Source of the DNA: Natronomonas gomsonensis
GTDB taxonomy: Archaea; Halobacteriota; Halobacteria; Halobacteriales; Haloarculaceae
Length of the DNA stretch: 64,000 nucleotides
NCBI RefSeq assembly: GCF_024300825.1
Contig: NZ_CP101323.1
Location: 186,001 to 250,000 of the forward strand
Direction of reading: 5' to 3'
In this document: positions 3,468-59,730 of the stretch, piece by piece
Position numbering within the stretch: position 1 is the stretch's first letter
Layout of the letters: each line of letters begins with the position of its first letter
Notes under the pieces: generated by a model
What the model was told of the DNA's origin: nothing
Seen by the model: the letters and a program-made list of their open reading frames with translations, nothing else
Database searches by the model: none
Position numbers and translations under genes: made by a program

Positions 3468-3469
3468 TT

Positions 3470-6131: not shown

Positions 6132-6154
6132 CAGGTACTCGGGCATACATAGAC

Positions 6155-7509: not shown

Positions 7510-7530
7510 TTGAATGGGATTATATAATAA

Positions 7531-8790: not shown

Positions 8791-8971
8791 ACTCCGCGTT
8801 GGTTAGCCGTTTAACAAATACCCAGCTAAATCTGACTCACGGCGCTACGACGTGAGTCGCTCAGCCACATCTCAAAAGTAATGATATCTTTATTCATTTC
8901 ACGGTATCGTCAAATCCCTTCGAATCGCACAAGATTTAGTACGCGGCCGTTGAACAGTATTACAAGAACCA

Positions 8972-9873: not shown

Positions 9874-9975
9874 CTATACAACGTGGGGATTTGGGGAGTC
9901 TCGATGATTTCAGCGAGTAGAACCAGCCTTTGCGCATCCACTCAGTCGGTGACGGGGATGAATTTGAATACATTC

Positions 9976-10287: not shown

Positions 10288-10288
10288 G

Positions 10289-10615
10289 TTACACCCCGTT
10301 CTCCGTCTGGGACTCCGATTCCGCGCCCGATTCGCCGTTGGCGACATCTCGGTTGACGTAACTACCTGCCTCAACGTTGTACTCCTCGTCCAGATACGCC
10401 TCCCCTTCTTCTGTTATTACGTACATACCATTGCCAACTTCTTTCAGTAGATTGTGGTCCGCCATCTTGTTCAGCCGGCGGGAGATCGTTGGTCGCGACA
10501 CCAAGATGAGGTCACTTTTCTTCATTTGAGATGCCGACCCCATCCCATCGTGCTCACGAATCCATTCGAGGATGCGGTCATCCCACAACCCCATCCACTT
10601 CGCCGACTTTCTCAT
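10289..10615 (-). CDS. PhiH1 repressor-type winged-helix regulator
   Basis: 108 residues from the ATG at 10615 (MRKSAKWMGLWDDRILEWI). This opening is characteristic of the haloarchaeal phage PhiH1 repressor family. HTH residues SRPTISRRLNKMADHNLL follow, then the wing GNGMYVITEEGEAYLDEE. The family represses early phage promoters. The gene is divergent from the eight-gene operon that starts at 10845, with about 230 bases between them, so it is the likely master repressor of the element. A TTG start three codons upstream is possible but less typical. Confidence 0.88.
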   Translation of the reverse strand: MRKSAKWMGLWDDRILEWIREHDGMGSASQMKKSDLILVSRPTISRRLNKMADHNLLKEVGNGMYVITEEGEAYLDEEYNVEAGSYVNRDVANGESGAESESQTENGV

Positions 10616-10793
10616 TATTCTCAATACTCAACAAGCTTCTTTAATAGAATCGCATAGATTAATAAGAATCTAATAGTACTTGATAGACCAGTATGGTCAT
10701 CCTAAACCAGCCGGTACATTTTTGAACAGACGGTTCAATTGTGTGTTTCACGAAACTGCCAAACTCGTTGATGCCTCTCTGCGGTTGGCATCT

Positions 10794-10819
10794 CGGGGCT
10801 GTGCACCACCACAGCCCCG
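10794..10819 (+). repeat. Hairpin before the element operon
   Basis: CGGGGCTGTG (10794-10803) and CACAGCCCCG (10810-10819) form a perfect 10-base stem with a six-base CACCAC loop, 25 bases before the ATG at 10845. It lies in the divergent control region next to the PhiH1-type repressor. It may be an operator dyad or an mRNA 5' hairpin. Confidence 0.65.
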
Positions 10820-10844
10820 GAAAAGGTGGTTTCGTGGACCTAAG

Positions 10845-12134
10845 ATGTCCGAAACCAACTCCGCGGGCGAGAACGCCCGCACCGACCGAGACGCACCACA
10901 CGACAAAAAGCCCGACGCTCACGTCCTTGGGCGTGGCGAAACTCGCGTTCCCGACGAGGACGCCGTCATCCTCACCGACGGCGGCCGCGATCTTCCTCGC
11001 TTCGTCTACGACGACGCGGCCATCTCGACGGGCGACATCGTCGTCGACCTCGCCAGCGGGAAAGCACTCCAGGTCGTCGGCAAATCCGTCCAGACCGTCA
11101 GCGAACACCCGCAGACGCGCTCGAACGACACCGCCGAGATGTTCGGCGCGCACTCCGCCGAGACCGTCTTCGACTGCGTGTTCCTGCCGGACGGCGAGAA
11201 GGTGACGCCGCCGACGAAAACCTACGCCTACCCCGAGAGCCGACTGCTCCGCTACCCCGTCGAGAACGCCACCGAGTACGACGGCGACATCCAGACGTGG
11301 CTCCGAACCGCGTTCCTCGACGAACTCGCCAACGCGGCCGCTGAGAACGACCGACTGACGGCCGCCGTCTCGATAGCCGTCCGTGAGGCCTACGGCGAGG
11401 ACCTCGAAGCGACCTTCCGCGAACTCGTCGAGAGGAAGGCCGACGAGCCCGAGGTCGCCACCGACGGTGGTATCGACCTCGTCTCAGCGGACCTGAAAGC
11501 CTCGCTCGAATCCTCAGAGTGTCATCCCGACGTGGTCCGGTATGCCGAAGCGGCCGCCGAACGCGGTGGAACACCGATTCTCAACTCGCTGCGGCACTTC
11601 CACGAGGAAACCGACGTGTCGAGAATCGCCGACATCGGCACGGAGATCGAGAAGACGCTGTGGTACCACGGTGCTCGCGCGACACTGGACCGCCACGGCC
11701 ACCTCGACGACACCAACACCGCGATTCTCGAAGACATCGCCGACGACCACGGCGAAGCCCTGCTCGCCGACGGCGGCACGGTCCAGACTGGCCCGGAGCC
11801 ACGACCCGACGCGCCCTCGAAACCCACGCCGGACGTGACCCGGATCGAAGCGGTCGGCTCCGCCCCCGACACGGTCGACCGACTCACCGTCACGGTGCAC
11901 TTCTACGACGGCTGTACCGAAAACACCGCCCACGTCGAGTTCACCGTCACCGGCTCGACGGCCGCATTCCGCGACATCGACGTGCCGTGCTCGATGAGGG
12001 CCGCCTCGCCGGCTATCGTCGAGGCCGAAGCCGCCGTCGGCGAGCATCAGGCCATCCAAGCCGTCGAGACCGCCGCGATGCAACTCGCCGAAGCGCTGGC
12101 TGCCCTCGCCGACGACACGGAGGCCGACCGATGA
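10845..12134 (+). CDS. Unidentified element protein (429 aa)
   Basis: First gene of the element operon. The ATG at 10845 (MSETNSAGENARTD) is chosen because the upstream extension crosses the hairpin and reads basic and Cys-containing, unlike the acidic body. The protein is soluble. An N-terminal part (~1-110) is beta-rich (GDIVVDLASGKALQVVGKSV). A central helical part (~130-330) includes ESSECHPDVVRYAEAAAERGGTP. A C-terminal beta domain holds DTVDRLTVTVHFYDGC. No nuclease, helicase or replication-initiator motif is visible. Its stop overlaps the next start as ATGA. A replication or packaging role is conceivable but unsupported. Confidence 0.75.
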   Translation: MSETNSAGENARTDRDAPHDKKPDAHVLGRGETRVPDEDAVILTDGGRDLPRFVYDDAAISTGDIVVDLASGKALQVVGKSVQTVSEHPQTRSNDTAEMFGAHSAETVFDCVFLPDGEKVTPPTKTYAYPESRLLRYPVENATEYDGDIQTWLRTAFLDELANAAAENDRLTAAVSIAVREAYGEDLEATFRELVERKADEPEVATDGGIDLVSADLKASLESSECHPDVVRYAEAAAERGGTPILNSLRHFHEETDVSRIADIGTEIEKTLWYHGARATLDRHGHLDDTNTAILEDIADDHGEALLADGGTVQTGPEPRPDAPSKPTPDVTRIEAVGSAPDTVDRLTVTVHFYDGCTENTAHVEFTVTGSTAAFRDIDVPCSMRAASPAIVEAEAAVGEHQAIQAVETAAMQLAEALAALADDTEADR

Positions 12135-12442
12135 CCCGGATGCCCGAACTGTCGGACTTCAAGCGCGACCTCCTGATGACGCTGGCGCGCTCGGAGCCGA
12201 CCCACGGCTCCGGGCTCGTGGATGACCTCTCGTGTCTCCGTGCCGAGAACGTCACGAAGGGCCGACTCTACAAGAATCTCGACGAACTCCACGACCACGG
12301 CCTCATCGAGAAGCGCGTTCGCACCGAGAACGACAACCGACGCAACGAGTACGCACTCACGACCGCAGGGCGAGAATCCATCCGACAGCACGCCCAGCGC
12401 GTCGCTGGCGTCGCCGACGCCATCAACGGAGGTGCAGCATGA
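12131..12442 (+). CDS. PadR-like winged-helix regulator
   Basis: 103 residues, ATG at 12131 overlapping the previous stop. It shows the PadR pattern: LSDFKRDLLMTLARSEPTHGSGLVDDL, then NVTKGRLYKNLDELHDHGLIEKR as recognition helix, and the wing NRRNEYALTTAGRESI. PadR proteins are usually dimeric repressors, and here it is probably part of the element's own control circuit. MPELSDF at 12140 is an alternative start. Confidence 0.85.
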   Translation: MTRMPELSDFKRDLLMTLARSEPTHGSGLVDDLSCLRAENVTKGRLYKNLDELHDHGLIEKRVRTENDNRRNEYALTTAGRESIRQHAQRVAGVADAINGGAA

Positions 12443-12768
12443 GCGACCGTATCTCGACGGAGGACCTCACCGACGAGCAGATAGAGAGAGTCCTGAATTC
12501 GAAGGGATTTCAGAAGATGTTGGCGTACTCGAAGCTCGCCGACGGCATCGAGGTGCTCGAATCCGAAGACGAAATCTTCGACTCGATGGTCAACACCATC
12601 ACGAAGCAACACACCTCGGTCAGCACCGAGTCGAGTATCCGCGAAGTCCTCTCGCTGTTCCGCAGCGAGGTCTCGACGTTCACCGAGCCGCTCGTCGACG
12701 ACGAGAACGGCATGGAGGGCAGCGACCTCGAAGACATCTACGTCGACGACACGGAGGCCGACCGATGA
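12439..12768 (+). CDS. Acidic element protein (109 aa), unknown
   Basis: ATG at 12439 overlaps the preceding TGA. The protein (MSDRISTEDLTDEQIERVL) is very acidic and mostly helical, with no Cys and no recognised domain. The tail DIYVDDTEADR closely matches the tail of the 429-residue protein (DDTEADR). This is because the two genes share the same stop/next-start junction sequence (ACGGAGGCCGACCGATGACCC around 12117 and 12751), a small local duplication. Confidence 0.65.
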   Translation: MSDRISTEDLTDEQIERVLNSKGFQKMLAYSKLADGIEVLESEDEIFDSMVNTITKQHTSVSTESSIREVLSLFRSEVSTFTEPLVDDENGMEGSDLEDIYVDDTEADR

Positions 12769-13316
12769 CCCGCCACATTCCGGGCGGGTACGCCCCTGAC
12801 CACAACACGCCGTCGCAGTTCGTCGTCCGTTGCTCGGACTGCGGCCGTGTCTGCATCCGCGACGACCGCGGGGATGCCCATGACCGCGCCGACAGCCACG
12901 CGCTTCACTGCGCGCAGACGGGTGTGACGCCCATCTCGTTCATCGGCGACGAGGAGCAGGCCGACGACGAGGCCGAGACTGCGACACTCCAGCCGCGGAT
13001 CACCAACCTCGTCGGCGAAGAGGTGACGCTCGTCTACCACAGCAAAGACCCCCGTAGCGACGAGGTCGAACGGGACGCCGTCGTCGAGGAGATGCTCACC
13101 AGCTACCTCGACGTGCCCTACCGGGGCTTTCTTGCCCGGGCCGAGAACGGCATCGAACTGGAGGTCGACCTCTCGGCTGGCATCGTCTTCTCGCACGGTA
13201 ACGTTCGCAGTCCGACCGGCGAAATCCTGCGGGTCGAACCCGCCTGCGAGGAGCCCGCGCTCGGCGAGGACGCAACCGACGACGCTCGGGTGGCAACCGA
13301 CGGAGGTGAACCATGA
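12765..13316 (+). CDS. CxxC element protein (183 aa), unknown
   Basis: ATG at 12765 overlaps the preceding stop. Residues ~22-45 contain a zinc-binding set (VRCSDCGRVCIRDD with DRADSHALHC downstream, i.e. CxxC...H...C), suggesting a treble-clef or C2HC finger. The middle is acidic (DEEQADDEAET), followed by a beta-rich domain (VTLVYHSKDPRSDEVERDAV). No family recognised. Its position just before the sliding clamp suggests a DNA-related role (inference). Confidence 0.7.
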   Translation: MTRHIPGGYAPDHNTPSQFVVRCSDCGRVCIRDDRGDAHDRADSHALHCAQTGVTPISFIGDEEQADDEAETATLQPRITNLVGEEVTLVYHSKDPRSDEVERDAVVEEMLTSYLDVPYRGFLARAENGIELEVDLSAGIVFSHGNVRSPTGEILRVEPACEEPALGEDATDDARVATDGGEP

Positions 13317-14140
13317 GCGCCGACGCCGTCGAAGCCGATGGCGACGAAGAACCCGTCGACGAAGCCGATGAACGACCGTCTTCCCCGACCGTCGACGCGC
13401 TGGAGACGCTCATCAACGCGGACACGTTGGCCAAGACCATCGAGGTCGCTAACTCTGTCGCCGACGAGTCCGTGCTCCGGTTCGGCCGACACGGGCTCAA
13501 AATCCGCCTGGTCGACCCGGCGAACGTCTACATGGCGAACATCCACCTCGATTCGAGCGGCTTCGAGGCCGTCGGCGACGGCGTCTTCCCCGCCGGTCAG
13601 AAACACGAAGGACTGCTCGACTTCATCGGCAAGGCCGACAGTGAGGAACTCGTCTCGCTGGCCTTCGACGCCGAGACGAGACGACTGGCCGTCGAGTTCC
13701 AGCCCTACGAGCGCGACTACGCGCTCATCGATCCCGACAGCATCCGGCAGGAACCCGACATCCCAGACATGGACCTCCCCAACGTCTTCAACATCGACGG
13801 GGAGACCCTGAAGGAAGTCGTCGAGGTCTCGCAACTCGTCTCTGACCATGTCGACATCGAGGGCGACCCCGACGCTGAGTGCATCCGGATTGTCGCCGAA
13901 GGGGACACGGATACCAACACGGCGACTCTCGACGACGAACTTGGGTTTGCCGAGGTGACGGAGGATGCGTCGTCCTTCCTCTCACTCGACTACCTCGAAG
14001 ACGCGGTCGGTGTTATTCCGAAATCATCGACTGTCGAGGTCCGATTCGGCGACGAGTTCCCCGTGATGATGGAGTGGACCTTCGCCGACGATTACGGCCA
14101 CGTCAAGCAGGTAATCGCACCGCGGATTGTGTCGCAATGA
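13313..14140 (+). CDS. Element-encoded PCNA sliding clamp
   Basis: 275 residues with an acidic ~30-residue N-terminal tail ahead of a full PCNA-like fold. The clamp signature is near 60-85 (VLRFGRHGLKIRLVDPANVYMANIHLD), with the inter-domain region DYALIDPDSIRQEPDIPDMDLP. The C-terminal domain ends in VRFGDEFPVMMEWTFADDYGHVKQVIAPRI. PCNA forms a trimeric ring that tethers polymerases and other enzymes to DNA. Cellular haloarchaeal PCNA is about 247 residues, and the extra acidic N-terminus is unusual. The clamp lies inside the overlapping operon of the integrated element without a polymerase or clamp loader, so it must use host partners. Confidence 0.88.
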   Translation: MSADAVEADGDEEPVDEADERPSSPTVDALETLINADTLAKTIEVANSVADESVLRFGRHGLKIRLVDPANVYMANIHLDSSGFEAVGDGVFPAGQKHEGLLDFIGKADSEELVSLAFDAETRRLAVEFQPYERDYALIDPDSIRQEPDIPDMDLPNVFNIDGETLKEVVEVSQLVSDHVDIEGDPDAECIRIVAEGDTDTNTATLDDELGFAEVTEDASSFLSLDYLEDAVGVIPKSSTVEVRFGDEFPVMMEWTFADDYGHVKQVIAPRIVSQ

Positions 14141-14697
14141 GCCTCGCCATGTCCACCGGCTCATCCCACGTCATCGGCGAGCCGCATCCGAACCAGCGGT
14201 CGCACGCCACCTTCGAGTTCAAGCAGGCCGACCCCGACCGAACCGGCGGTGGCTACCCGCGCTGGCGCTCCTACGAACTTCGACCGGAGACGCCCGGTCG
14301 GCAGAAGGAGGATGTGTACGTCTCCGTCCACCGGTTGTGTGCCGTCGCGTGGCTCTTCGAAAACGGACGTACCGCCGAGGACATCCTTCGATCGGGCGAC
14401 CTCATCGGCGCCGACGTGCATCACGAACTGGAGATGCCGTCGGCGAACATCGAATCCGAACTTTCGCTCCGAGGCCACGGTGAACATTCCGAGATTACAC
14501 AGACGAAGCGCCGTGCGTGGGCGGAAGACACGAAGCGTGACATCGAGGAACGTGAATCCAGACCCGTCGGAGCCGACGAGTGCGCCCGCTGTGGTGCAGT
14601 CGAGACGAGTCTCGCCGAATGTGACGCATGGCCCGGCGAGAAGCGGTGTATCGAGTGCGCTATCGAGACCTCGAACGGAGAGGAGGTCCGACTGTGA
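14137..14697 (+). CDS. HNH/zinc-finger-like element protein (186 aa)
   Basis: ATG at 14137 overlaps the PCNA stop. The N-terminal half (YPRWRSYELRPETPGRQKEDVYVSVHRLCAVAWLF) is a compact basic domain with a VHRL...A.W pattern seen in haloarchaeal phage proteins. The C-terminal end carries a zinc knuckle, CARCG near 156-160 and CIEC near 176-179. I see no complete HNH catalytic set, so nuclease activity is speculative. Confidence 0.7.
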   Translation: MSLAMSTGSSHVIGEPHPNQRSHATFEFKQADPDRTGGGYPRWRSYELRPETPGRQKEDVYVSVHRLCAVAWLFENGRTAEDILRSGDLIGADVHHELEMPSANIESELSLRGHGEHSEITQTKRRAWAEDTKRDIEERESRPVGADECARCGAVETSLAECDAWPGEKRCIECAIETSNGEEVRL

Positions 14698-14882
14698 CCG
14701 AACACGCTGTCGGGACCACCCGAGTCCCGCCCGCCCAAGGCGGCCCCGAGACGTGGAAAACCGGCTGTCCAGAGGGACACGTCCGGACGATGCCGCGACC
14801 GCAGAAAGGCGGCTACTACTGCAACACCTGTAAGCAGCACTACGAGGGCGACCCAATTCCCCGAGGTGAGGCCGATGTCTGA
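14694..14882 (+). CDS. 62-residue zinc-ribbon protein (GTG start)
   Basis: The GTG at 14694 overlaps the preceding TGA, keeping the element's overlapping pattern. A four-residue-set ribbon is visible: GCPEGHVRTM (Cys plus His) and YYCNTCKQHYEG (CxxC and His). It probably binds zinc. It is directly before, and overlaps by eight bases, the integrase, so it may be an accessory or excisionase-type protein (inference). Confidence 0.7.
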   Translation: MTEHAVGTTRVPPAQGGPETWKTGCPEGHVRTMPRPQKGGYYCNTCKQHYEGDPIPRGEADV

Positions 14883-15897
14883 GAACCTCCAGCCGACGAC
14901 GCCGGAGGAGGGCATCGAGAAGTACCTCGCCCATCGGAAAATCGAGGTCTCCGAAGAGACGCTCCAGACCTACGACTACCGCCTTCGGAAATTCAATCGT
15001 TGGACCGACGAGGTCGGCCTCGACAATCTAAACGACCTCACCGGCCGGAAGCTCGACGAGTACGAGCGTCATCGCCGCCAGCAGGGCATCAAGAAGACGA
15101 CGCTGAAGGGCGACATGAAGGACTTCCGGATGGCAGTCCGGTACTGGGAACGCATCGAAGCGGTCGCCGACGGGCTCGCCGATAAGGTGCCCGTCGTCAA
15201 CCCGAAGAAGCACGAGGAAGTCTCCCAAGAAACACTCGACGAAGAGAGCGCGATGCCGCTGCTTCGGTACTATCGGCACCGGACACCCGGTACTCGAAAC
15301 CACGCTTTCCTCGAACTCGCGTGGTCGACCGCCGCCCGCGTCTCCGGGCTCCAAGCGCTCGATATGCGGGACTTCTACCCCGAAGAGGGCTACGTCTGGT
15401 TTCGGCATCGGCCGGGGCAAGGCACCTCGCTCAAGAAGAACTACGCCAGCGAGCGAGTCGTCAGTATCCCCGACCGCGTCGTCGAGGCGCTCCGGGGCTA
15501 CATCTCAGATAAACGCTACGCCGTCCGTGACGACCACGGTCGTCACCCGTTGTTTACCAGCCAGCAGGGACGGCCGCACAAGAACACGATTCGCGGCTGG
15601 TCGTATCACATGACCCAGCCGTGCCGCTACGGCGACTGTCCGCACGGGTACGACCCCGCGGAGTGCGACTTCCGTGAGCACGGATACTACTCGAAGTGCC
15701 CGTCCTCGAAGTCGACACACCCGATTCGGAAGGGCTCGATTTCCTGGCACCTCGGTAACGGCGTGCCCATGGAACTCGTTGAGGCCCGCTGTGACGCCTC
15801 TCGGGAGGTCATCGAGTTACACTACGATATGCGCTCTCCCGAGGAGCGAATGCAGCACCGTCGCGGAACCGTTCTCCCGAAACTGAAGTACGCATGA
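14875..15897 (+). CDS. Tyrosine integrase of the element
   Basis: 340 residues from ATG 14875. An N-terminal SAM-like core-binding domain (IEKYLAHRKIEVSEETLQTYDYRLRKF; residues ~10-110) precedes the catalytic domain. That domain has STAARVSGLQAL (Arg), the strand KKNYASERVV (Lys), THPIRKGSISWHL in the HxxR position, and the nucleophile ELHYDMRSPEERMQHR. A Cys-rich insert (CRYGDCPHGYDPAECDFREHGYYSKC) near 247-275 looks like a zinc finger, as in haloarchaeal proviral integrases. It catalyses integration and excision. It is the last intact gene of the operon. Confidence 0.92.
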   Translation: MSENLQPTTPEEGIEKYLAHRKIEVSEETLQTYDYRLRKFNRWTDEVGLDNLNDLTGRKLDEYERHRRQQGIKKTTLKGDMKDFRMAVRYWERIEAVADGLADKVPVVNPKKHEEVSQETLDEESAMPLLRYYRHRTPGTRNHAFLELAWSTAARVSGLQALDMRDFYPEEGYVWFRHRPGQGTSLKKNYASERVVSIPDRVVEALRGYISDKRYAVRDDHGRHPLFTSQQGRPHKNTIRGWSYHMTQPCRYGDCPHGYDPAECDFREHGYYSKCPSSKSTHPIRKGSISWHLGNGVPMELVEARCDASREVIELHYDMRSPEERMQHRRGTVLPKLKYA

Positions 15898-16187
15898 CCA
15901 TGTCCGAAACCACCGACCAACACGACCCGCAGAATCGACGCGAAACGGAAGATGTGGGTACTCCGATACACGGCGGTCCCACTTTCCAAACCGACACAGC
16001 ATCCCTTAGCGATGTGGACATCTCGATAGGGGGATGCGAACTATTCAACAACCACCACCGGCGTCTGCCATGTCTGTGGCGACGAGCACGCGACCGAACA
16101 ATCCGGTGGGTTGGCCGTACTGAGTCACCGCTTCAGTTCCACCCCGGTTGGCAAACTTCTTATTCGGTGTCGGGCGACAGGCGCCCT
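15894..16187 (+). pseudogene. Broken last frame of the element operon
   Basis: An ATG at 15894 overlaps the integrase stop (ATGA), as for the other operon genes, and opens MTMSETTDQHDPQNRRETED. After about 45 residues the frame becomes basic and Trp/Arg-rich, unlike a real protein. From about 16040 another frame reads a convincing zinc-finger piece (GVCHVCGDEHATEQSGGLAVL) that has no start. I infer a damaged gene or the element's right junction. The in-frame continuation into the next gene at 16188 is probably accidental. Confidence 0.4.
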
Positions 16188-16475
16188 ATGGGCGACGAAG
16201 TACCACTCGAACTCATGGTCTCGGAAGACGCAGCTAAGGCGGCTATTCGAAGGGACGAGATGGACGCACCCGAGTTGTTCGCGAACCTTGAGTCGCTGAT
16301 TTGGGTGTACGAGATACTCGACGCCAGGGCGAATCCACAAACCAACGACGAGCTTCGAGATATTCGGTTGTTGCTCGATGAAGATTTGGAGGTCCCTGTC
16401 AAGCGAGCCGCGAAGATACTCAGCGAACTGGGACTCGTTGAGGATACCGGTCAGGGATGGGTGACAACCGACTAA
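16188..16475 (+). CDS. Small helical DNA-binding-like protein (95 aa)
   Basis: ATG at 16188 (MGDEVPLELMVSED), with an AT-rich stretch (CTTCTTATTC) about 30 bases upstream as promoter. Helical with a winged-helix look: ESLIWVYEILDARANPQTNDELRDI, then VPVKRAAKILSELGLVEDTGQGWV as recognition helix and wing. The longer in-frame form from 15894 is rejected because its extra part is not protein-like. It probably regulates transcription. Confidence 0.6.
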   Translation: MGDEVPLELMVSEDAAKAAIRRDEMDAPELFANLESLIWVYEILDARANPQTNDELRDIRLLLDEDLEVPVKRAAKILSELGLVEDTGQGWVTTD

Positions 16476-16554
16476 CCCGTCACGCCCCAATCGATGATAT
16501 CGGAATCGCAATACTGAGGAAAGTTATTTGACCGATTGGCCACGTTACCGTGGT

Positions 16555-17037
16555 GTGATTAGGCGAGATTTCCTCGCGACGAGTTTATCCGGAACTGTAG
16601 CCCTCATTGCTGGGTGTACAGGCGGCGATTCGAACGATTCAGACACGTCACCCGCCACGCCGGACGGGGATGCGTCTCCCGAAGAACTGCTCCCGGAACC
16701 ATTGGAAGGATGGGACCGAACCAATATACGGGACGTTGGGGGTGGGTTTGGACCAGACGATGGAATTGAAACTGCGAAATTAGGGTCGTACACACCCGAT
16801 GGCGAAACTGGCTATCAAGTCGGGATTTATCGCTTTGCGTCAGAGGCAGACGCGACCGAAGTCGCCTCGCTCATCGAGGAGGAGGGCGAATTTTTCAACT
16901 TCATGTACGCGGTTCAGAACAAAAATTTCCTCATCGGTGGCAGACATAGTGATGGAACGGATCAAAACCTCCTGTCGCTATTAACTAATTCGCGCGTGCT
17001 TACTGAACAGTACGTTACGGACAATAACCTCCTGTAG
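16555..17037 (+). CDS. Tat-exported lipoprotein, unknown
   Basis: The likely start is GTG at 16555 (MIRRDFLATSLSGTVALIAGC). Twin arginines, a hydrophobic stretch and a lipobox Cys define a haloarchaeal Tat lipoprotein. A 30-residue Asp/Ser/Thr-rich linker follows. The remaining ~110 residues form an alpha/beta domain (GETGYQVGIYRFASEADATEVASLI). A TTG at 16528 would add nine residues. The mature protein would be anchored outside the membrane. Confidence 0.7.
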   Translation: MIRRDFLATSLSGTVALIAGCTGGDSNDSDTSPATPDGDASPEELLPEPLEGWDRTNIRDVGGGFGPDDGIETAKLGSYTPDGETGYQVGIYRFASEADATEVASLIEEEGEFFNFMYAVQNKNFLIGGRHSDGTDQNLLSLLTNSRVLTEQYVTDNNLL

Positions 17038-17181
17038 GGCGTATCTCTTCGCAGTGTATAGATACGGAGTCGAGGGGCTGGGTGATTGCTAATAAATAAA
17101 GAGCGCGTCGATAGGGCCCGCAACGTGACAACCCCGATCTTAGAACTTGCCTGGTACAGTTGTCAGTTAAGCCACTCCACT

Positions 17182-17550
17182 TTACGACGTTCCGCCTTCT
17201 GTACGTCGGGCGCGTACGTCCCCCGGTAGTGTATCGAGGAACGTTTCGAGGTCGTCCCAGCCGCCCCAGTCACAGACGAGGAGTGAGTCGACATCCTGGC
17301 TTTTCAGTTGCGTTGCCCATATCCGCCGGAGGCCGTGGAACGTGAGTTCCGCCCACCGCGGGTCGCCCTCTTCGGCCAACTGCTTGTCCGTGGCCTTGAT
17401 TCAGTGGAGGAGCGTCCGGGTGCTGAGGCCTTTTGTCGAGGACTGTGAGGTGACGATGGGATAGTCGTCGGGGTCGTCGCGATACTCGGCGGCGGTCTCA
17501 ATGGTGTTCGCGACCGACGGCGGAATCGGGGTCTCTGAACCGTTGATAAT
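17182..17550 (-). pseudogene. Decayed tyrosine integrase C-terminus
   Basis: On the minus strand one frame reads the C-terminal half of an integrase, with the HxxR box LTFHGLRRIWATQL and the W box CDWGGWDDLETFLDT. It is interrupted by TGA at 17403-17401 (context LLH-stop-IKATDKQLAEEGDP), most simply a TGG Trp codon mutated to TGA. The N-terminal half is missing and no start codon is available. It marks an earlier integration next to the present element. Confidence 0.75.
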
Positions 17551-17585
17551 TCTTAAATTTGGATTCGCTTTCCTGAGATGGAGAA

Positions 17586-18866
17586 TCAGCTATTATTACC
17601 TTTGCCAGAGGAGAAATAGGTGCTTGTAGTTCCATCTTCGAATTCCAGCACGACTGCGATAGCGGCGTTTGGTTTTCCAGATATTCCTTTTATATTAATA
17701 TTATGGGTTTCCTCACCACTCCAGGTCCACTCATTAACCTCCCTAAACTTCGTCCCCCCCACATTTACAGAAGACGCCGTTTCAGATGTTTTTGCGAATG
17801 TGAGGTCTACCGAAGATATGCCATTCCCATTGCCAGGATTGGAGGCCCATGGTACGCGAACGCCGGTTACGACTTTTGCTGTATCCGCCTTGTTCTTAAG
17901 AACTAGTTTGTCGGCCGATGAGGAGGGTCCTTTCAGGACAAGAGCATCTGCACCGATTGGATTAATCCCGCCTGTGTCTTCATCCTCACCACTATCATCT
18001 CCAGTGAATACTGCCGCAGGCTCATTCTCTGGGTCCGTATTGATGCCGATTGGCGTACAGCGAATGCGATACTGTTCACTCCCACTCTCACTATCGAGTG
18101 ACAGGACTGCCTCGTCTTCGGATGGCATAACGAAGTCACCATCAAACGACGCTTTCCAACCGTCTTGGTTCTGAATCGGGATTTCAATCGTGGCAGGGGT
18201 ATCATCCTCACCCACACTGAACGTCCCTGTGTCGCCAGTCACCCCTGGCTTGAACGTGATCGGTTCTCTTGAAGTTCCCGATTCACGAATCGAACCATGG
18301 GTGATCGGAGTGAGGTGAATCGTTGTGACACCGGATTCATCGTCAACTAATCGTTGACTGTTTTTCAAGCCAGCCCCGTCGACTATCCGATAGTGAACTC
18401 CGGCCTCATACGTGTGTGAGGCCGCGTTCTGGTATTCATTATACCGTGGTTCATAGGTAAGCGCCTTTGTCTCGACGCCTGAGAGCCCACAAACCTCGTT
18501 AACTAGCTCTCTATCATCCAAATCCGAGAAGGCATCGCCGTTCTCACTTGATAATGACCCAACAGACTCACTTTCTACCGTGCCTCGTGCTGGTGGTGGC
18601 GTGAGAAACACCGTCGACACGCCGTATCGAGTTCCCAGAGAGAGACTAGCGCTTCGTTCGCGGTTACTCCCGGCTGCATCCCCGATCGAGGCATACATTT
18701 CGGTGAAGTCATCAGAGACTTCTTCGACGTGATTCTGCTCGGTCGCCGCGATCTCCTGTGGGACGAAATACGTCTGGAGGAGTCCCAGTGCGAGAATGAA
18801 AATCCCGAACAGTAATATTGCGCCAACTACCTCTGACTGTCCCCGGTCCCCGGTGATGATGCCCAT
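17586..18866 (-). CDS. Pilin-like surface protein (DUF7289-like)
   Basis: 426 residues starting MGIITGDRGQSEVVGAILLFG. The RGQSEVVG junction before a hydrophobic helix (AILLFGIFILALGLLQTYFV) matches archaeal class III/type IV pilin-like signal regions (haloarchaeal DUF7289). The remainder is an extracellular Ser/Thr/Gly-rich beta domain. GC content drops toward the 3' end, with rarer codons than its neighbours, consistent with a fast-evolving surface protein. No assembly machinery is adjacent. Confidence 0.75.
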   Translation of the reverse strand: MGIITGDRGQSEVVGAILLFGIFILALGLLQTYFVPQEIAATEQNHVEEVSDDFTEMYASIGDAAGSNRERSASLSLGTRYGVSTVFLTPPPARGTVESESVGSLSSENGDAFSDLDDRELVNEVCGLSGVETKALTYEPRYNEYQNAASHTYEAGVHYRIVDGAGLKNSQRLVDDESGVTTIHLTPITHGSIRESGTSREPITFKPGVTGDTGTFSVGEDDTPATIEIPIQNQDGWKASFDGDFVMPSEDEAVLSLDSESGSEQYRIRCTPIGINTDPENEPAAVFTGDDSGEDEDTGGINPIGADALVLKGPSSSADKLVLKNKADTAKVVTGVRVPWASNPGNGNGISSVDLTFAKTSETASSVNVGGTKFREVNEWTWSGEETHNINIKGISGKPNAAIAVVLEFEDGTTSTYFSSGKGNNS

Positions 18867-18908
18867 TGGTCCCCACTCACATGGGGTATTCGCTGAAAGG
18901 TAAAAAAT

Positions 18909-19154
18909 CTATATACAACCAAACTCATAGTAAATGACATCCGGACACACCGCCTCTACATACGGATTTTCGCCATCTAACTCGATAACAACAGGATGTA
19001 TGGAGATTCCACGCGACCAGCCCAGGCCCCACAGAATCACAACGACCACCCCTGCGGCTCGGCACACGCTGAATAACAATGTCCATCGCGCTGCAGTGAC
19101 GGTCAGCAGGCGTTCCGACGGGACTCGGCGGCCGCTGTCGTCAGGAATCCACAT
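18909..19154 (-). CDS. Possible small membrane protein (81 aa)
   Basis: ATG at 19154 gives MWIPDDSGRRVPSERLL, one hydrophobic segment (TLLFSVCRAAGVVVVILWGLG) and an acidic tail ending in GCI. It starts within the promoter region of the divergent UspA gene. No family recognised. It could be a chance frame. Confidence 0.25.
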   Translation of the reverse strand: MWIPDDSGRRVPSERLLTVTAARWTLLFSVCRAAGVVVVILWGLGWSRGISIHPVVIELDGENPYVEAVCPDVIYYEFGCI

Positions 19155-19163
19155 GACCGGACA

Positions 19164-19169
19164 TTTAAA
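19164..19169 (+). promoter_or_regulatory. TATA box of the UspA gene
   Basis: TTTAAA centred about 26 bases before the ATG at 19193, consistent with a leaderless transcript. Confidence 0.55.
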
Positions 19170-19192
19170 CTCTCCCGTCGTCGAACTCGCGT

Positions 19193-19702
19193 ATGACTCT
19201 CCTCGTCCCGTTCGATGGGTCCGAACTCGCCGAGGCGGCGCTCGTCCGAGCGACGGAGTTCGCGGCGGTGTTCGACGAAGACGTGTTGGCTGTGACGGTC
19301 ATCCCGAAAGGCAACGCCCGCTACGCGAGAAAACGCGACTGGCTCGGCGACGAGGAGCCCTTCGCCATGCAGCCAATCGTCTCGAAGTTACACGAGCAAG
19401 TCGTGGGACTGGCATCGAGTGCGGATTTTATACACAAGACGGTCGACAAATACGCACCGTCCGGGTCCATCTCGACTCGCATCCGAAAAGTCGCCAAACG
19501 GGAGGACGTGTCGATGGTGTTCATCGGCAGCGACAACGCCGGCCACCTGGTGACAAGCGTCTCGAGCGTCGGCGGCAACGTCGCCACCGACGAAGCCTAC
19601 GACGTGGTCATCGTCCGCAATCGGAGTCCGGCGAAAATCGCGAAACTGAAGAACGCCTCCCCTCACCGACACACGAAATCCGACTTCTATCTCCCGGATT
19701 GA
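19193..19702 (+). CDS. UspA-family universal stress protein
   Basis: 169 residues, single Usp domain. The N-terminal strand TLLVPFDGSELAEAALVRATEF is the Usp opening, and DVSMVFIGSDNAGHL followed by DVVIVRN occupies the ATP-loop/C-terminal strand region. The classical G-2x-G-9x-G(S/T) ATP motif is incomplete (GSDNAGHLVTSVSSVGGNVAT), so it may not bind ATP tightly. Cytosolic. Monocistronic with its own TATA box. Confidence 0.85.
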   Translation: MTLLVPFDGSELAEAALVRATEFAAVFDEDVLAVTVIPKGNARYARKRDWLGDEEPFAMQPIVSKLHEQVVGLASSADFIHKTVDKYAPSGSISTRIRKVAKREDVSMVFIGSDNAGHLVTSVSSVGGNVATDEAYDVVIVRNRSPAKIAKLKNASPHRHTKSDFYLPD

Positions 19703-19758
19703 GTCTCGGCGTGGTTTCGTCCGGACTGCCCGGCGGTCCGTGGCGACGAATCTGTGTG

Positions 19759-19767
19759 CATATATAC
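19759..19767 (+). promoter_or_regulatory. TATA box setting the GTG start at 19788
   Basis: CATATATAC is centred about 25 bases before the GTG at 19788, so transcription should begin at that codon. This argues against the in-frame GTG at 19740, which lies upstream of the box. Confidence 0.55.
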
Positions 19768-19787
19768 GGGGATGTGTAACGCCAGAT

Positions 19788-20153
19788 GTGCCCGACGGAT
19801 TCGATGGAGACACCGACGAGGTCGGCTGTCCGGACGAAATCGACGACACGCCCACCGTGTCGTGTTCCCAGTGTGGCCGGGAGTGGGACCTCGAATACGA
19901 ACTCGACGACCTGCGCGTCGGCAATCAGGCGCTCGAACGGTTCGCGTTGGACCACAAACGCCACACCGGACACTTTCCCGACGAGGTAACGCCGTGGGTC
20001 GTGGCCTGCCGACAGTGTCCCGACGGCGACGAGTTCCTCTCGGAGCGGCCCGCACGGCGCTGGGCGGAGACCCACGCACGCCACACGCGACACAGCGTGA
20101 CGGTTCGCGGCGACGACGGTGACGACCCGACGGTCGTCGAACCCGACGACTGA
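19788..20153 (+). CDS. CxxC zinc-finger protein (121 aa), unknown
   Basis: GTG start at 19788 supported by the TATA box. Two putative zinc sites: CSQCG near 26-30 and CRQCP near 73-77, with histidine-rich helices (LDHKRHTGHFP; ETHARHTRHSV) that could complete binding. The repeated architecture (CxxC then HxxH) suggests two fingers of the same type. Function unknown. Followed by the DUF2391 gene in the same direction. Confidence 0.65.
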   Translation: MPDGFDGDTDEVGCPDEIDDTPTVSCSQCGREWDLEYELDDLRVGNQALERFALDHKRHTGHFPDEVTPWVVACRQCPDGDEFLSERPARRWAETHARHTRHSVTVRGDDGDDPTVVEPDD

Positions 20154-26198: not shown

Positions 26199-27344
26199 TT
26201 ACTCGAGAATATTGAACACATCAACGGCTTTGTACTCTTTTCCGCGTTCTTTCCCGGTTACTTCCTCGATGAGGCCATCCGATTCGAGATCGTCGACGAC
26301 CTTGTAGGCAGTCCGACGAGAGACATCGAGATACCCCACGAGATTCGGTGCGGTAAAATACGGATACTGGAGTAACTGGCGTGCAAACTGATCCGTTTTC
26401 GTGTTGCCCGGATACTCCTTCTCGTAGCGCTCCTGGAGTTCACGGAGCTGGTGGGTTCGGTCGTACGATGTTTCCGCTTGACTTCGGAGCCCTTCGAGGA
26501 AAAATTGGAACCATTCGTTCCACGCACCCTCGTCACTGACCGCCCGCATTCGTTCAACGTATTCGACTTTGTGCCGGTTGAAGTATGCGCTCGGGTAGAT
26601 GTACGGACTCTCGAGATACCCTTGGCTCGTCAAATAGAGAATAATGAGGAGGCGGCCAAGTCGACCGTTCCCGTCCGAGAACGGATGGACTGTCTCGAAA
26701 AAGTAGTGGATAATTGCAGCATCCACGAGTGGATGATACTGTCCGCCCATCTGGACGTATCCCTCAAGAGACTGCATCAGTGCGTCGAGCGCTTCCGGCG
26801 GTGGGGGAACGAACGGGCGTTCTCCTGACTGGGGACTTGTTAGATGAACCATGTGGTCCCGGAAGTCCCCGACAACGTCTCCGTCGTTTCGGACGTCTTC
26901 AAGCAGCATCGAGTGAAGGCGTTTGATGAGCGAGAGCGTTATTTCATCTCCACTCTTGACTTTCTCGAGCCCGTGGGTAAGCGCGTTCTCGTAATTGAGT
27001 GCCTCTTTCAGGTCTTTTTCGACTGTCGGGTCTGTTTCACCCGTGGGATTCTGGGTGTGATACGCCTCAACGTCTTGGTATACAACATCTGCCCCTTCGA
27101 TACGTGCGGATTCGACAGCCTCAATCCGAATAAGTGAGGTATAGAGTACTGTTGAGAAGTCAACAGTTGAACTGATACCGTCGACACGACCGATCTGATG
27201 TGCGGCATCAGCTACGAGAGCGTGTGTCTGATCGGTGATTTCAAGCTTTGGCTCTACAGGGAGCGTTTCAGGCGAATAGTATGGATTTGGGTGGTAGGAG
27301 ACGTATGTCCCTGGCGCGCGATCGGGAAGCTCTTTCGGGGACAT
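26199..27344 (-). CDS. Fic-domain protein with self-inhibitory helix and C-terminal HTH
   Basis: 381 residues. The catalytic Fic motif HPFSDGNGRLGR lies at 220-231; Fic enzymes usually transfer AMP to target proteins. A class II inhibitory motif, S79-A-R-I-E83-G84, is present in the N-terminal domain (SARIEG fits [S/T]xxxE[G/N]) and should block activity until relieved. The C-terminus (~310-381) is a winged helix (PNLVGYLDVSRRTAYKVVDDLESDGLIEE), common in Fic proteins of archaea. It is a single gene with no antitoxin partner, as expected for the class II type. Flanked by matching dyads. Confidence 0.93.
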   Translation of the reverse strand: MSPKELPDRAPGTYVSYHPNPYYSPETLPVEPKLEITDQTHALVADAAHQIGRVDGISSTVDFSTVLYTSLIRIEAVESARIEGADVVYQDVEAYHTQNPTGETDPTVEKDLKEALNYENALTHGLEKVKSGDEITLSLIKRLHSMLLEDVRNDGDVVGDFRDHMVHLTSPQSGERPFVPPPPEALDALMQSLEGYVQMGGQYHPLVDAAIIHYFFETVHPFSDGNGRLGRLLIILYLTSQGYLESPYIYPSAYFNRHKVEYVERMRAVSDEGAWNEWFQFFLEGLRSQAETSYDRTHQLRELQERYEKEYPGNTKTDQFARQLLQYPYFTAPNLVGYLDVSRRTAYKVVDDLESDGLIEEVTGKERGKEYKAVDVFNILE

Positions 27345-48556: not shown

Positions 48557-49108
48557 TGAGGAAGGGTATTCACGACGATTTTCGGACGGTACTTGACGAC
48601 GCCGACGATTCCTGATCCACAATACGGCAGCTAATTTGAGGAGTCAACAAACTGGCGTCGAGGGAGATGATCGAGGTCGCTTCAACGGAGGTCTCTAGTC
48701 GGATAACAGTGCATCTGAACCTCCGAATCGGCCCGAGTTGGTCCCTAACCAAACGGTAATTCAATTTATTCCTCAGATTCAGACGCAACAGTAAACGACT
48801 CTGGTGCGCATGGAAGCTGGTTGTGTTGACACCATTGGCAGTGTTCAACAGCACTGTACCGCCCGAACGAGAACTCAGTAATCGGTTCATCGACGACGCC
48901 ACCTCGTCTCTGATGGTTTCAAGTTCGTCATTGCTAAACATGCGTGACTCGACTTTCGGTCCGATATTACCAACGTACGCATAGCCCGCACGATTGACTG
49001 ACTCGTCGTACAGTTCACGACAGGCAAGCAGGTAAATCGGGAGTTGCTTATCGAAGTTACAATAAAACTTCGCCCTTCAGGGCGGGGAGGATGTCAACAA
49101 AAACTGTC
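48557..49108 (-). other. Mostly non-coding stretch with one doubtful frame
   Basis: Between the histidine kinase and the ParA operon. A 123-residue leftward frame at 48941-48570 begins MFSNDELETIRDEVASSMNRLL, convincing for ~35 residues, then basic and Leu/Ser-rich; it may be a decayed gene. The rest shows no gene. An IS-end-like sequence closes it at 49070-49096. Confidence 0.3.
49070..49096 (-). mobile_element. Possible right-end scar of an IS200/IS605 (TnpB) element
   Basis: TTCGCCCTTCAGGGCGGGG at 49069-49087 then AGGATGTCAAC, i.e. a CGCCC-TTCA-GGGCG hairpin followed by GGGAGGATGTCA. From memory this is the common 3' end of haloarchaeal TnpB elements, where the guide-RNA scaffold lies. 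No tnpB or tnpA remains nearby. Strand is uncertain. Confidence 0.4.
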
Positions 49109-49516
49109 TCAGGGCTCGTCGAATGTCATCCCGTAACCCCACTCCTCAAGCTCACCTTCGACGTCGTCGAGATGCTCAAGCCCGGCCCGAACCAACGCTT
49201 CCCGAAGATCGGTGAGCGAGACATCCGCATCGAAGCGTTCCTCTAGCTCCCGCAATGCATCCCGCTCCGCCCGCTTCGTCTCCGGCAGCAAAAACAGCGG
49301 CACGCGGTCCCGACCGTCCTGGACCCCATCCCGACGGAATTTGTACGGGATGGTCATCGACTGCTGTTGACTCTCCGTCGTCTCGGTACTCGACTGCTCA
49401 CTTGGCTCGTCAGCGGTCGCCTGCCCGTCGGCGTCTGCCTCCACTGGGTCTGAATCATCCGCCGTCGTCTCTTCGGCAAACGGATCCTCGCCGGCGCCTT
49501 CCTTCATGCCCGTCAT
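49109..49516 (-). CDS. ParA-operon partner protein (135 aa)
   Basis: The ATG overlaps the end of parA by four bases. A disordered acidic N-terminal half (DDSDPVEADADGQATADEPSEQSS) is followed by a helical C-terminal half (IPYKFRRDGVQDGRDRVPLFLLPETKRAERDALRELEERFDADVSLTDLREALVRAGLEHLDDVE), which ends in a helix-turn-helix/CopG-like pattern. By position it should be the DNA-binding centromere adaptor (ParB-like), although it is not ParB by sequence. Confidence 0.75.
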   Translation of the reverse strand: MTGMKEGAGEDPFAEETTADDSDPVEADADGQATADEPSEQSSTETTESQQQSMTIPYKFRRDGVQDGRDRVPLFLLPETKRAERDALRELEERFDADVSLTDLREALVRAGLEHLDDVEGELEEWGYGMTFDEP

Positions 49517-50388: not shown

Positions 50389-50497
50389 ATGATGTTCATT
50401 GCTGGTATTTATCTTGAATGTTCGTCAGACACGTGTAACACAACAAACCAAACATGACATTCATTAATGTATTTAGTAGTGTGTGATAACGGTATTC

Positions 50498-50601
50498 AAG
50501 AATAAGAGTAATGGATACAACTCATGAATGTGATTAATGAATGTATGCAATGAACATAACCAATGAAGATTTGCAATGAACACGATTAGTGAATGCACAT
50601 A
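50498..50601. repeat. 13-base-period repeat array upstream of parA
   Basis: Units start every 13 bases: AAGAATA (50498), ATGGATA (50511), ATGAATG (50524), ATGAATG (50537), ATGAACA (50550), ATGAAGA (50563), ATGAACA (50576), GTGAATG (50589). The first two are weaker. Unit cores are followed by six variable bases. Inverted copies of the core (TGTTCAT at 50393, TGAATGTTC around 50415, CATTCATTAATG around 50458) occur nearer parA. Consistent with iterons or a partition centromere/operator. Confidence 0.8.
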
Positions 50602-50638: not shown

Positions 50639-51088
50639 TCAGTTAGTACGGCTTCCAGAAATTGGCTCGCCAAATGCGACCGTCTGATTCACGGTCGTAA
50701 TTTCGACCTCGACCTGTTCGCCGGGTTGCGTCCCTGGAACGATAACGATGAAGCCACGTTCGACCTTCGCAATGCCGTCGCCTTGGTCTCCAAGCGTATC
50801 GATCGTGACTGAGCGAACCTCGCCTTCCTCAACTGGGGGCTCAGGTGATTGGGTTTCTGATGGAGCCGTTGGCTGTTCGTCGCTCGGGTCGTTGCGAGAG
50901 GAACCATGGCCAGGTTCTGACTGGGAGGTATCTACGGCGGAGGGAAGAAGCGCAACTCGATAGATTTCGTCAGCTGAAAGCGAACTGTTCTCGACGACCT
51001 CTTTCGGGAAGCTTACAACGTACCGATCGCCATCAGCTTCGACCCGCGACTCGATTAACAGCCGAAGGGAATCTGAAATCTGCGTCAT
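50639..51088 (-). CDS. TRAM-domain protein
   Basis: 149 residues. An N-terminal small domain (SLRLLIESRVEADGDRYVVSFPKEVVENSSLSADEIYRVALLP) is of AbrB/SpoVT or similar swapped-hairpin appearance. A Pro/Ser-rich acidic linker follows. The C-terminal TRAM domain is VRSVTIDTLGDQGDGIAKVERGFIVIVPGTQPGEQVEVEITTVNQTVAFGE. TRAM binds RNA, as in TRAM RNA chaperones of archaea. Here the N-terminal domain may bind DNA near the array. It is upstream of parA, in the same direction. Confidence 0.82.
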   Translation of the reverse strand: MTQISDSLRLLIESRVEADGDRYVVSFPKEVVENSSLSADEIYRVALLPSAVDTSQSEPGHGSSRNDPSDEQPTAPSETQSPEPPVEEGEVRSVTIDTLGDQGDGIAKVERGFIVIVPGTQPGEQVEVEITTVNQTVAFGEPISGSRTN

Positions 51089-56878: not shown

Positions 56879-58039
56879 TCACGTTCCACGTACTGAGTGT
56901 CGATACTCGGAGTACAGCGTCTCATAAGCGGCGAGTGCAACGAACAGAACCATGACTCCGGCCAAGGCAGTAAGTGAAGACACTTCCAGTACCACAGGGA
57001 TGATTGCACAGGCGAAGATTGCAACGACCAGACGTGGTCTGCTGATGCTGCCAACATCGCGCAACCGAGCGGCCACGTCACCGAATAGATAGAGTGCACC
57101 GCCACCACATAATGCGACTGCAGGAATCGTTTCGAGTGGGACCTGTGGATGGGCAACTGTCTTTTTGAGGCCGAACGCGACAAATATGACACCCGTCACG
57201 ATCGGGAAGTGCAAATAGCTGTAGGTATCCCGGGCCATTCTGGCACGCTCGTGACGATCTGCTGTGACGAGATTCTCTTCCATCCCTAGTGTGACGTAAT
57301 CGAAGTACAGCCACGCGAGCCCGGCGGCAAGTATGATTCCGAGGAACGCAGCAACAATCGATTCTGGGGGAAGTTCGAGGACGTCGTTCCCAAGCCCGAG
57401 GCCCATTGCCAACACTGACTCGCCGAGTGCGATAATGACGATATCTCGATGTCGATCGACGAAATGCTCGGGGCGGATCTGGAACCCAGCAACACCACGG
57501 ACGTACGCGACTCCATAATCGATCGCGAGCGCGACGACCCAGACCGCAGCTTGTAGCGGGCCAGCAAGAAAGCTGGCCACCACAAGTAACAATGGTCCAC
57601 CCAAAAAGCCCGGGGCGAGTCGGAGGATAGCATCTCGCGTTTCGGGTGTCGTCGCAGTCGCATACAGTGCGACGTGCAACACTCGAACGACGAAATATGC
57701 GACTGCAAAGAGCAGCGCACCCTCCTGGAAGGCGGTCGGAACTGCAAGGGCGACAATAAACATCCCAGCAGTTGCGGCAAAGATCACTATCCGTTCAGCG
57801 ACGCTCTCTTCAGTCGATAGCGCATCCGTCAGCCACGTGTAGGTGACCCATCCCCACCACAGTACTGCAAGGAGGGCTATAGCGCGGCCCACGCGCATCC
57901 AAGTGATGTCCGCCGCTAGAAATGTTGTAACCTGTACGAACGCAAATACGAACACGAGGTCGAAAAACAGTTCGACAGGACTAACGGAATCCGCTGCATC
58001 ACTCCCGTCTTTACTTTCTGTTGGCAGCACCTTCGCCAT
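56879..58039 (-). CDS. LtrA-family membrane protein, copy 1
   Basis: 386 residues, about ten membrane helices. The LtrA signature is VSPVELFFDLVFVFAFVQVTTFLA near residue 20, then WWGWVTYTWLTDALSTEES, FVDRHRDIVIIALGESVLAMGLG and DTYSYLHFPIVTGVIFVAFGLKKTVAH. LtrA ('low temperature requirement A') proteins are of unknown biochemical role. It is paralogous to copy 2 just across the HxlR gene and divergent from it. Confidence 0.9.
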   Translation of the reverse strand: MAKVLPTESKDGSDAADSVSPVELFFDLVFVFAFVQVTTFLAADITWMRVGRAIALLAVLWWGWVTYTWLTDALSTEESVAERIVIFAATAGMFIVALAVPTAFQEGALLFAVAYFVVRVLHVALYATATTPETRDAILRLAPGFLGGPLLLVVASFLAGPLQAAVWVVALAIDYGVAYVRGVAGFQIRPEHFVDRHRDIVIIALGESVLAMGLGLGNDVLELPPESIVAAFLGIILAAGLAWLYFDYVTLGMEENLVTADRHERARMARDTYSYLHFPIVTGVIFVAFGLKKTVAHPQVPLETIPAVALCGGGALYLFGDVAARLRDVGSISRPRLVVAIFACAIIPVVLEVSSLTALAGVMVLFVALAAYETLYSEYRHSVRGT

Positions 58040-58557: not shown

Positions 58558-59730
58558 ATGAAGTCAGCTCCCTCGCGGTTGGCGAGCCTCGAAGACATCG
58601 GTGGAGACGAGGAGGAGGAGGAGGTTACGCCGCTTGAGTTGTTCTTCGATCTCGTCTTCGTCTTCGCGATGACGCAGGTGAGTAGTTTTCTCGCCAACCA
58701 TCTCACGTGGATCGGCGTCGTTCGTGGTGTCGGCTTGCTCGCCGTATTGTGGTGGGCGTGGGTCACTTACTCCTGGTTGACAAACGCCATTCCCGCAGAG
58801 GAGGCACTCCCGGCACGAATCGTGCTTCTCGCGGCGATGGCGGCCATGCTTATCGTCGCACTCGCCGTTCCCGACGCTTTCGGTGACGATGGAGTGCTCT
58901 TCGGCCTCGCGTACTTCGTCGTCCGGATGTTACACGTCCTCCTGTACGCGCTTGCGACCGACCCAGAGACACGGGATGCGATTTTGCGGCTCGCTCCAGG
59001 ATTTTTACTTGGACCGATACTCCTCGTCCCGGCAGGGTTTCTCGATGGATCCATGCAAGCATTGCTGTGGGTCCTCGCGCTCGCAGTCGACTACGGCGTC
59101 CCGTTGGTCCGAGGTGTGTCCGGTTTCTCCATCCAGGCGAGCCACTTCGTCGAACGCTACCGCCTGATTCTCATCATCGCACTCGGCGAGTCCATCGTAG
59201 CAATCGGCGTCGGCGTCAACGCCGGTGGTCTCGCGCTCACTCCGAACGTTATCGTCGCCGCTCTCTCCGGTATCCTGCTCGTATTCGCTCTCTGGTGGCT
59301 CTACTTCGACTACGTCGTGCTCGCTGCCGAGCGGCGACTCGTTTCGGCGACCGATTCGGAGCGAGCGGTCCTGGCACGGGACTCCTACAGTTATCTCCAC
59401 CTCCCGATGGTCGCTGGGATAATCTTTACCGCGCTCGGGATAGAGCAGACGCTCGCACACGTCGGAGAACCGCTCGGGACCATTCCAGCCGTGGCGCTCG
59501 GTGGCGGCGGGGCACTGTACTTGATCGGACACAACCTCTTTCGACTCCGCGATACCGGAACGATCAGCGTTCCTCGATTCGTCGTTGCAGCCGGTGCCTG
59601 TCTGACAATTCCGCTCTCGATGCGTGTCTCCGCGCTCACGTCGCTGTTTTCGCTGATGGTTCTGTTTGTCGGTCTCTCCGGCTTCGAGACGGCCCGGTCT
59701 GAATTTCGCCAATCGGTTCGAGGGAGCTGA
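58558..59730 (+). CDS. LtrA-family membrane protein, copy 2
   Basis: 390 residues. Same plan as copy 1 (VTPLELFFDLVFVFAMTQVSSFLA; FVERYRLILIIALGESIVAIGVG; DSYSYLHLPMVAGIIFTALGIEQTLAH), roughly half identical by eye. An acidic N-terminal tail (DEEEEE) is longer. The promoter contains GTCGGAAACGACACTGTAG, loosely like the shared box. Tandem LtrA genes across a regulator suggest local duplication. Confidence 0.9.
   Translation: MKSAPSRLASLEDIGGDEEEEEVTPLELFFDLVFVFAMTQVSSFLANHLTWIGVVRGVGLLAVLWWAWVTYSWLTNAIPAEEALPARIVLLAAMAAMLIVALAVPDAFGDDGVLFGLAYFVVRMLHVLLYALATDPETRDAILRLAPGFLLGPILLVPAGFLDGSMQALLWVLALAVDYGVPLVRGVSGFSIQASHFVERYRLILIIALGESIVAIGVGVNAGGLALTPNVIVAALSGILLVFALWWLYFDYVVLAAERRLVSATDSERAVLARDSYSYLHLPMVAGIIFTALGIEQTLAHVGEPLGTIPAVALGGGGALYLIGHNLFRLRDTGTISVPRFVVAAGACLTIPLSMRVSALTSLFSLMVLFVGLSGFETARSEFRQSVRGS

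Follow-up and report, generated by a model that had tools for sequence, protein, structure and literature searches.

The locus analysed here raises the question of what function is served by a tandem array with a 13-bp period that is located next to a plasmid-type parA gene on a chromosome-sized contig of the haloarchaeon Natronomonas gomsonensis. The window, i.e. the whole stretch of DNA that was analysed, comprises 64,000 nucleotides (positions 186001-250000 of contig C1, 3.54 Mb) of a 3.65 Mb genome present in two contigs. A sequence-only reading had interpreted the array as a centromere or iteron cluster, possibly part of a distinct archaeal partition system. The comparative evidence presented below favours the centromere and disfavours an iteron origin, and with good confidence we interpret the locus as a type Ib-like ParA partition cassette, in which the direct array is the centromere, the inverted units in the promoter are the operator, and the core sequence sets the specificity of the replicon. 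The cassette comprises the following features:

49109..49516, minus strand: partner gene, encoding 135 residues, ATGA overlap with the parA stop codon
49513..50388, minus strand: parA, encoding a 291-residue ParA-family ATPase with no N-terminal HTH
50389..50437, minus strand: putative operator/promoter with TATA-like box, octamer and inverted cores
50406-50415, minus strand: TATA-like AAGATAAATA, within the putative parA promoter
50423-50430, minus strand: conserved GTCTGACG octamer, within the putative parA promoter
50454..50470, no strand assigned: lone inverted core ACATTCATTAATG lying between the promoter and the array, from direct reading of the sequence
50498..50601, minus strand: centromere-like array of eight 13-bp units, based on exact register, shuffles, uniform orientation and relatives

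The units of the array share a single orientation throughout, with the core TGTTCATTA when read towards parA (ATGAAC/T on the plus strand; TTCAT[T/C] in the direction of parA), and the array lies approximately 125-205 bp upstream of this gene. It had been described as eight ATGAA[C/T] repeats, one every 13 bases: the register is indeed exact at all eight starts, from 50498 to 50589, but the core is strict at only four units (50524, 50537, 50550 and 50576), the other four being degenerate (ATGAAG at 50563, GTGAAT at 50589 and, at the far end, ATGGAT at 50511 and AAGAAT at 50498). Among the three cores reported as inverted nearer to parA, those near 50393 (TTCAT) and 50458 (ATTCATT) are truly inverted, whereas TGAATG at 50415 has the orientation of the array. 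The isolated core at 50454..50470 forms an exact 12-nt inverted repeat with the array unit at 50533-50544. Upstream of parA, the lag-13 self-match of the best 78-nt window was 7.9 sd above dinucleotide shuffles (reached by 0 of 200), and Tandem Repeats Finder reported periods of 13 and 26 at the array. The tandem pattern is unique in the 3.65-Mb genome: five of the seven genome-wide matches correspond to the array itself, and the other two are single matches at background level.

The operon formed by parA and its partner is transcribed away from the array, which is located upstream. Wherever the operon could be read in the fetched relatives, the partner gene comes immediately after parA, its start codon overlapping the parA stop codon with an offset of -4 in 130 of 151 loci and lying within a few bases of it in nearly all the rest. 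This order, with a small partner gene downstream, is that of type Ib systems, the product being a putative DNA-binding protein. In the clade of the window, a TATA-like box is located ~30 nt upstream of parA, and inverted TGAA cores are most frequent at positions -10, -23 and -49 relative to the parA ATG, in a 13-bp register (spaced by multiples of 13); the window itself has inverted cores at -10 and, in degenerate form, at -23. The GTCTGACG octamer is found at about -43 from parA in most clades and is common to clades with differing centromere cores; it may represent an extended BRE, or a site for ParA or a host factor. A scan for sigma-70-type promoters was dropped because the model is inapplicable to archaea. 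Just downstream of the partner gene, the region 48988-49110 gave a weak match to the Rfam HgcC RNA (E=0.024, below the gathering score) and holds a hairpin, CGCCCTTCAGGGCG, that is present in a single copy in the genome and may belong to the end of an IS200/IS605-type element.

ParA matches Pfam AAA_31 (E=1.4e-19), the AAA_31/CbiA matches starting at residue 8, as well as Soj structures (E=5e-11). Its Walker A motif is located at residues 8-17 of 291, and the protein has no HTH extension, as in type Ib ATPases. The motif reads SEAGGVGKT in the window and lacks the signature lysine; across all 151 loci it is SEAGG[VI]GK[TS] or SESGGVGKT, an A or S replacing this lysine, and the deviant Walker A motif with its signature lysine (KGGxxK[S/T]) was found in none of the 151. 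The signature lysine is treated as family-defining, yet is missing in type 1 McdA (PMC9178275, PMC8262871). Because of its absence, we describe the cassette as working like type Ib instead of filing it as a canonical member.

The partner protein has, in 73 relatives, a common layout consisting of a conserved N-terminal motif (MTGMKxGAGxDPF, with K5 and G7 invariant), a variable, acidic and disordered linker, and a conserved C-terminal domain (residues 55-135). The view that this adaptor is not a known ParB was borne out, as no credible match was obtained in Pfam, NCBIfam, PHROGs or PDB sequences; none of the 73 partners gave a ParB-related Pfam match, which sets them apart from HTH-ParB (CTPase) proteins, and SegB was not among the matches listed in a profile search of all PDB chains with the partner, although the two proteins may be distantly related. 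The best PDB sequence match (3fry, E=0.017) is short and helical and was taken as chance. An AlphaFold2 model of the C-terminal domain (pLDDT 94.9, pTM 0.80, from a 139-sequence alignment) displays an extended segment, RVPLFL, followed by helices at 24-41, 47-60 and 62-71; being a monomer model, it cannot show a dimeric ribbon. The full-length model was set aside (pLDDT 67.5, uninformative fold search). When Foldseek candidates were rescored with VIA-align, the F-plasmid TraM RHH domain ranked first (Z 5.4, rmsd 2.6 A, 51 of 53 residues), scores that are low in themselves (with Foldseek E>3), and the next matches included the RHH proteins TCP, TacA and MazE, most of the top matches listed being RHH proteins. 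The TraM domain, TCP, TacA and MazE are ribbon-helix-helix folds, and the topology of the model together with the coherence of the match list makes the C-terminal domain a good ribbon-helix-helix candidate.

The periodicity, whose loss in close relatives had been named beforehand as grounds for abandoning the proposal, is kept. In a first set of relatives, 78 of 79 upstream regions were significant at lag 13, and among 134 loci covering all clades but one, the period that stood out most upstream of parA was 13 or 26 bp in 124, compared with 8 of 396 control windows from other parts of these loci and 13 of 547 control windows rich in AT. Of the relatives in the collections, Natronomonas sp. CBA1123 is the closest (ParA 99% identical). 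At this constant pitch, at least seven core types are found according to clade: by motif search, TGTTCATTA in the clade of the window, TATCTwAGATA in a clade that is 65-72% identical, and GTTnCAAAC in a 60% clade, while distant cassettes, fetched via the partner, use TATAGCTATA, AGTCTAACT, CAGTAnTACTG and TTGAACC, the spacing being 13 bp in every case. Approximate dyad symmetry is seen in most of the cores. Letters that change at an unchanged pitch would be expected if the pitch depended on the way in which neighbouring protein dimers pack on DNA, and the letters on their reading head. The CAGTAnTACTG-type core is common to several ParA clades whose partners have a VHQLFV strand. In a Mantel-type analysis, the partial correlation with the core was 0.17 for the predicted DNA-contact strand and 0.18 for the rest of the domain, values too close to single out the strand; core similarity was best predicted by the segment immediately preceding the strand and by one in the loop between helices A and B, a result confounded by related sequences. 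One sister clade (ParA MKRA[IV]TLW, partner MTKDDRYGA) displays GATAGCTATC-like cores with a 12-bp spacing upstream of parA; it is found on several main-chromosome contigs and on plasmids (loci L172, L177, L179, L181-L186, L188-L189, L191-L192, L200 and L202), and is possibly a chromosomal partition system of haloarchaea.

The partner is present in 229 of 392 genomes of the host's order and in 42 plasmid records, none of them typed as mobilizable. Outside this order, no partner was found at E<=1e-6 among the matches listed for 295 genomes of the phylum, and no match was found in phages. A search for the trio of ParA, partner and array in other haloarchaeal replicons had been suggested, and the trio recurs across haloarchaeal plasmids: pNRC200 of Halobacterium NRC-1 (VNG_RS11715/11710) and pHME132 of Haloferax mediterranei (E6P09_RS18875/18870) are two replicons on which the cassette comes with a clear 13-bp array. 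The recurring trio, the conserved periodicity and an adaptor matching no known ParB support the idea of a distinct archaeal partition system. In the literature searched, mostly outside subscription journals, no description of the haloarchaeal partner or array was found, and this family of archaeal partition cassettes is apparently undescribed there.

The G+C content around the window is 51-61% in most samples, versus about 64-66% in most samples elsewhere on the contig. Samples from 1-20000 and 250001-425000 of the contig have 51-58%, with higher values at 100-120 kb (64%) and 166-186 kb (61%), and an Orc1/Cdc6 gene is located at 422798. The low G+C samples combined with this Orc1/Cdc6 gene at 422.8 kb make an integrated plasmid likely, as judged from sampled G+C, and suggest that an integrated megaplasmid accounts for some of the contig's first 425 kb. 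The cassette of the window is thus located in an AT-rich part of the main contig, probably an integrated plasmid, and on a chromosome-sized contig it may be a relic. Another genome of the same genus (G051) also has its ParA, 96% identical, on a large contig (2.9 Mb). A 219-kb contig (G124, contig C7) carries the cassette twice, 200 kb apart (L164, 5768-7957; L165, 205493-207682), which reflects either a duplication or the redundant ends of a circular replicon. Other genes observed in the window include two divergent neighbouring genes for LtrA-family membrane proteins (56879-58039, minus strand, and 58558-59730, plus strand) and a Fic/DOC family protein (Fic_N plus Fic; 26199-27344, minus strand), possibly an AMPylator or toxin-type enzyme.

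Cassettes that share one genome never have the same core type. In genome G218, for instance, four contigs each have one cassette, and the partner types correspond to TTGAAC, AGTCTAAC, GCTATAC and TCTTAG cores. Within one genus, no duplicate types were found in the same genome versus 4.6 expected (permutation P=0.00035), and no genome had two clade-A partners versus 4.8 duplicates expected (permutation P=0.0047), P values that are optimistic in that the permutations ignore strain relatedness. The absence of shared cores is the pattern that partition incompatibility would produce, and replicon-specific cores probably let several large plasmids per cell be sorted separately.

In the proposed mechanism, the promoter-proximal gene would encode a nucleoid-binding ParA-type ATPase and the second gene a small dimeric ribbon-helix-helix protein, of which one dimer would bind each 13-bp unit. 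Partner dimers coating the direct array upstream of parA would mark the replicon, and the disordered N-terminal tail of the partner, with K5 and G7, would engage ParA and stimulate ATP hydrolysis. Through the inverted, in-register units over the parA promoter, the same partner would repress its own operon. The 13-bp pitch would be held by the geometry of a protein-DNA filament, and the core would drift together with the DNA-binding domain, giving each replicon its own partition specificity.

The alternative to be weighed most seriously, although we consider it unlikely, is that the array is only an operator, the partner autorepressing a ParA operon that serves another cargo or regulation without any role in segregation. 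Inverted cores in 13-bp register do cover the parA promoter, whose architecture is conserved, and ParA-family ATPases position other cargos too, including McdA, which likewise lacks the signature lysine. However, an array placed ~125-205 bp upstream, and reaching more than 300 bp and more than 10 units in relatives, exceeds the needs of an operator; the cassette is typical of plasmids, and the avoidance of the same core by co-resident copies is not predicted by a plain operator. Less probable still is that the array is an iteron cluster, to which an initiator would bind for replication or for control of copy number. Direct 13-bp repeats look like iterons, and 12 of 82 loci have an Orc1/Cdc6-like gene no more than about 3 kb from the cassette, but in the other 70 the repeats go with parA and not with an Orc1/Cdc6 gene, the window contains no Orc1/Cdc6 gene (the nearest in the genome being ~186 kb away), and a GC-skew analysis, proposed earlier as a check for an origin, displayed no sharp inflection at the array.

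The TRAM-domain protein encoded at 50639-51088 is a still more improbable candidate for the array-binding adaptor. The sequence-only reading had placed the array between a TRAM/AbrB-like gene and parA, and this gene is indeed adjacent and on the same strand, with an N-terminus that by eye is AbrB-like. Its upstream position is shared by six relatives only, it is missing beside most arrays, which persist without it, and its sole significant Pfam family is TRAM, an RNA-binding domain; we therefore do not count it as a component of the cassette. The idea of a functionless array, arisen by chance or left as a simple repeat in decay, has a probability close to negligible: it is in keeping with the degeneracy of several units and with a host contig that is chromosomal today, but a single pitch is combined with differing cores in more than 120 loci, and the closest relative (L043, ParA 99% identical) keeps every unit in register, one of them improved compared to the window. 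Our preferred reading is accordingly that of a partition cassette with the array as its centromere.

We lean slightly towards a broader proposal, in which the Halobacteria possess their own partition family with one filament geometry, a fixed 13-bp pitch (12 bp in one clade, some of whose copies are chromosomal), and at least seven interchangeable cores, the latter acting as orthogonal centromere codes that define incompatibility and enable a polyploid cell to sort its chromosome and megaplasmids independently, and in which ParA hydrolyses ATP without the signature lysine. In a review of archaeal segregation, the form of archaeal plasmid centromeres and the way in which a chromosome and multiple megaplasmids are segregated simultaneously in halophiles are both presented as open questions (PMC5120986); the cassette offers a concrete, testable answer to both, in tractable organisms. 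It also supplies naturally occurring pairs of DNA-binding domain and core from which RHH specificity could be read, could serve haloarchaeal vectors as a ready-made stability module, and yields a rule to predict which megaplasmids can coexist.

Among known systems, the cassette resembles ParF-ParG-parH of plasmid TP228 (type Ib), which has a short ParA without HTH and a centromere array, and in which ParG is a small RHH partner whose flexible N-terminal tail stimulates the ATPase (PMC7308502); the partner described here is predicted to be RHH-like. In contrast to parH, composed of tetramer boxes with AT-rich spacers, the array has a strict 13-bp pitch, the partner has no detectable sequence similarity to ParG but an invariant MKxGxG N-terminus and one additional helix at its C-terminus, and the signature lysine is missing from ParA. 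In the delta-omega (ParA/ParB) system of pSM19035, an RHH protein binds the parS heptads, contiguous short repeats in direct or inverted orientation, and at least four contiguous repeats are needed for ParA activation (PMC9499535); its pitch is 7 bp instead of 13 bp, no sequence similarity was detectable, and the haloarchaeal family combines many cores with one pitch. SegAB of the Sulfolobales pairs an archaeal ParA-like ATPase with an RHH DNA-binding partner encoded by overlapping genes (PMC5120986, PMC12284271), but no sequence similarity to the cassette was detected, and the SegB sites are 13-bp TCTAGASTCTAGA palindromes scattered over the chromosome, whereas the cassette has one compact array per replicon, often plasmid-borne; in the present genome the array pattern occurs at one site, with cores that differ from TCTAGASTCTAGA. 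The AspA-ParB-ParA cassette of pNOB8 likewise serves the partition of an archaeal plasmid and has a centromere of its own (PMC9178275), but it comprises three proteins including a ParB-like adaptor, compared with two genes and no ParB-related domain here. McdA (beta type 1) is a ParA-type ATPase that also lacks the Walker A signature lysine (PMC9178275, PMC8262871), but it positions carboxysomes and has neither a centromere nor an RHH partner. The haloarchaeal cassette differs from known systems in its apparently unrelated partner, in a pitch that does not vary and in the missing signature lysine of its ParA.
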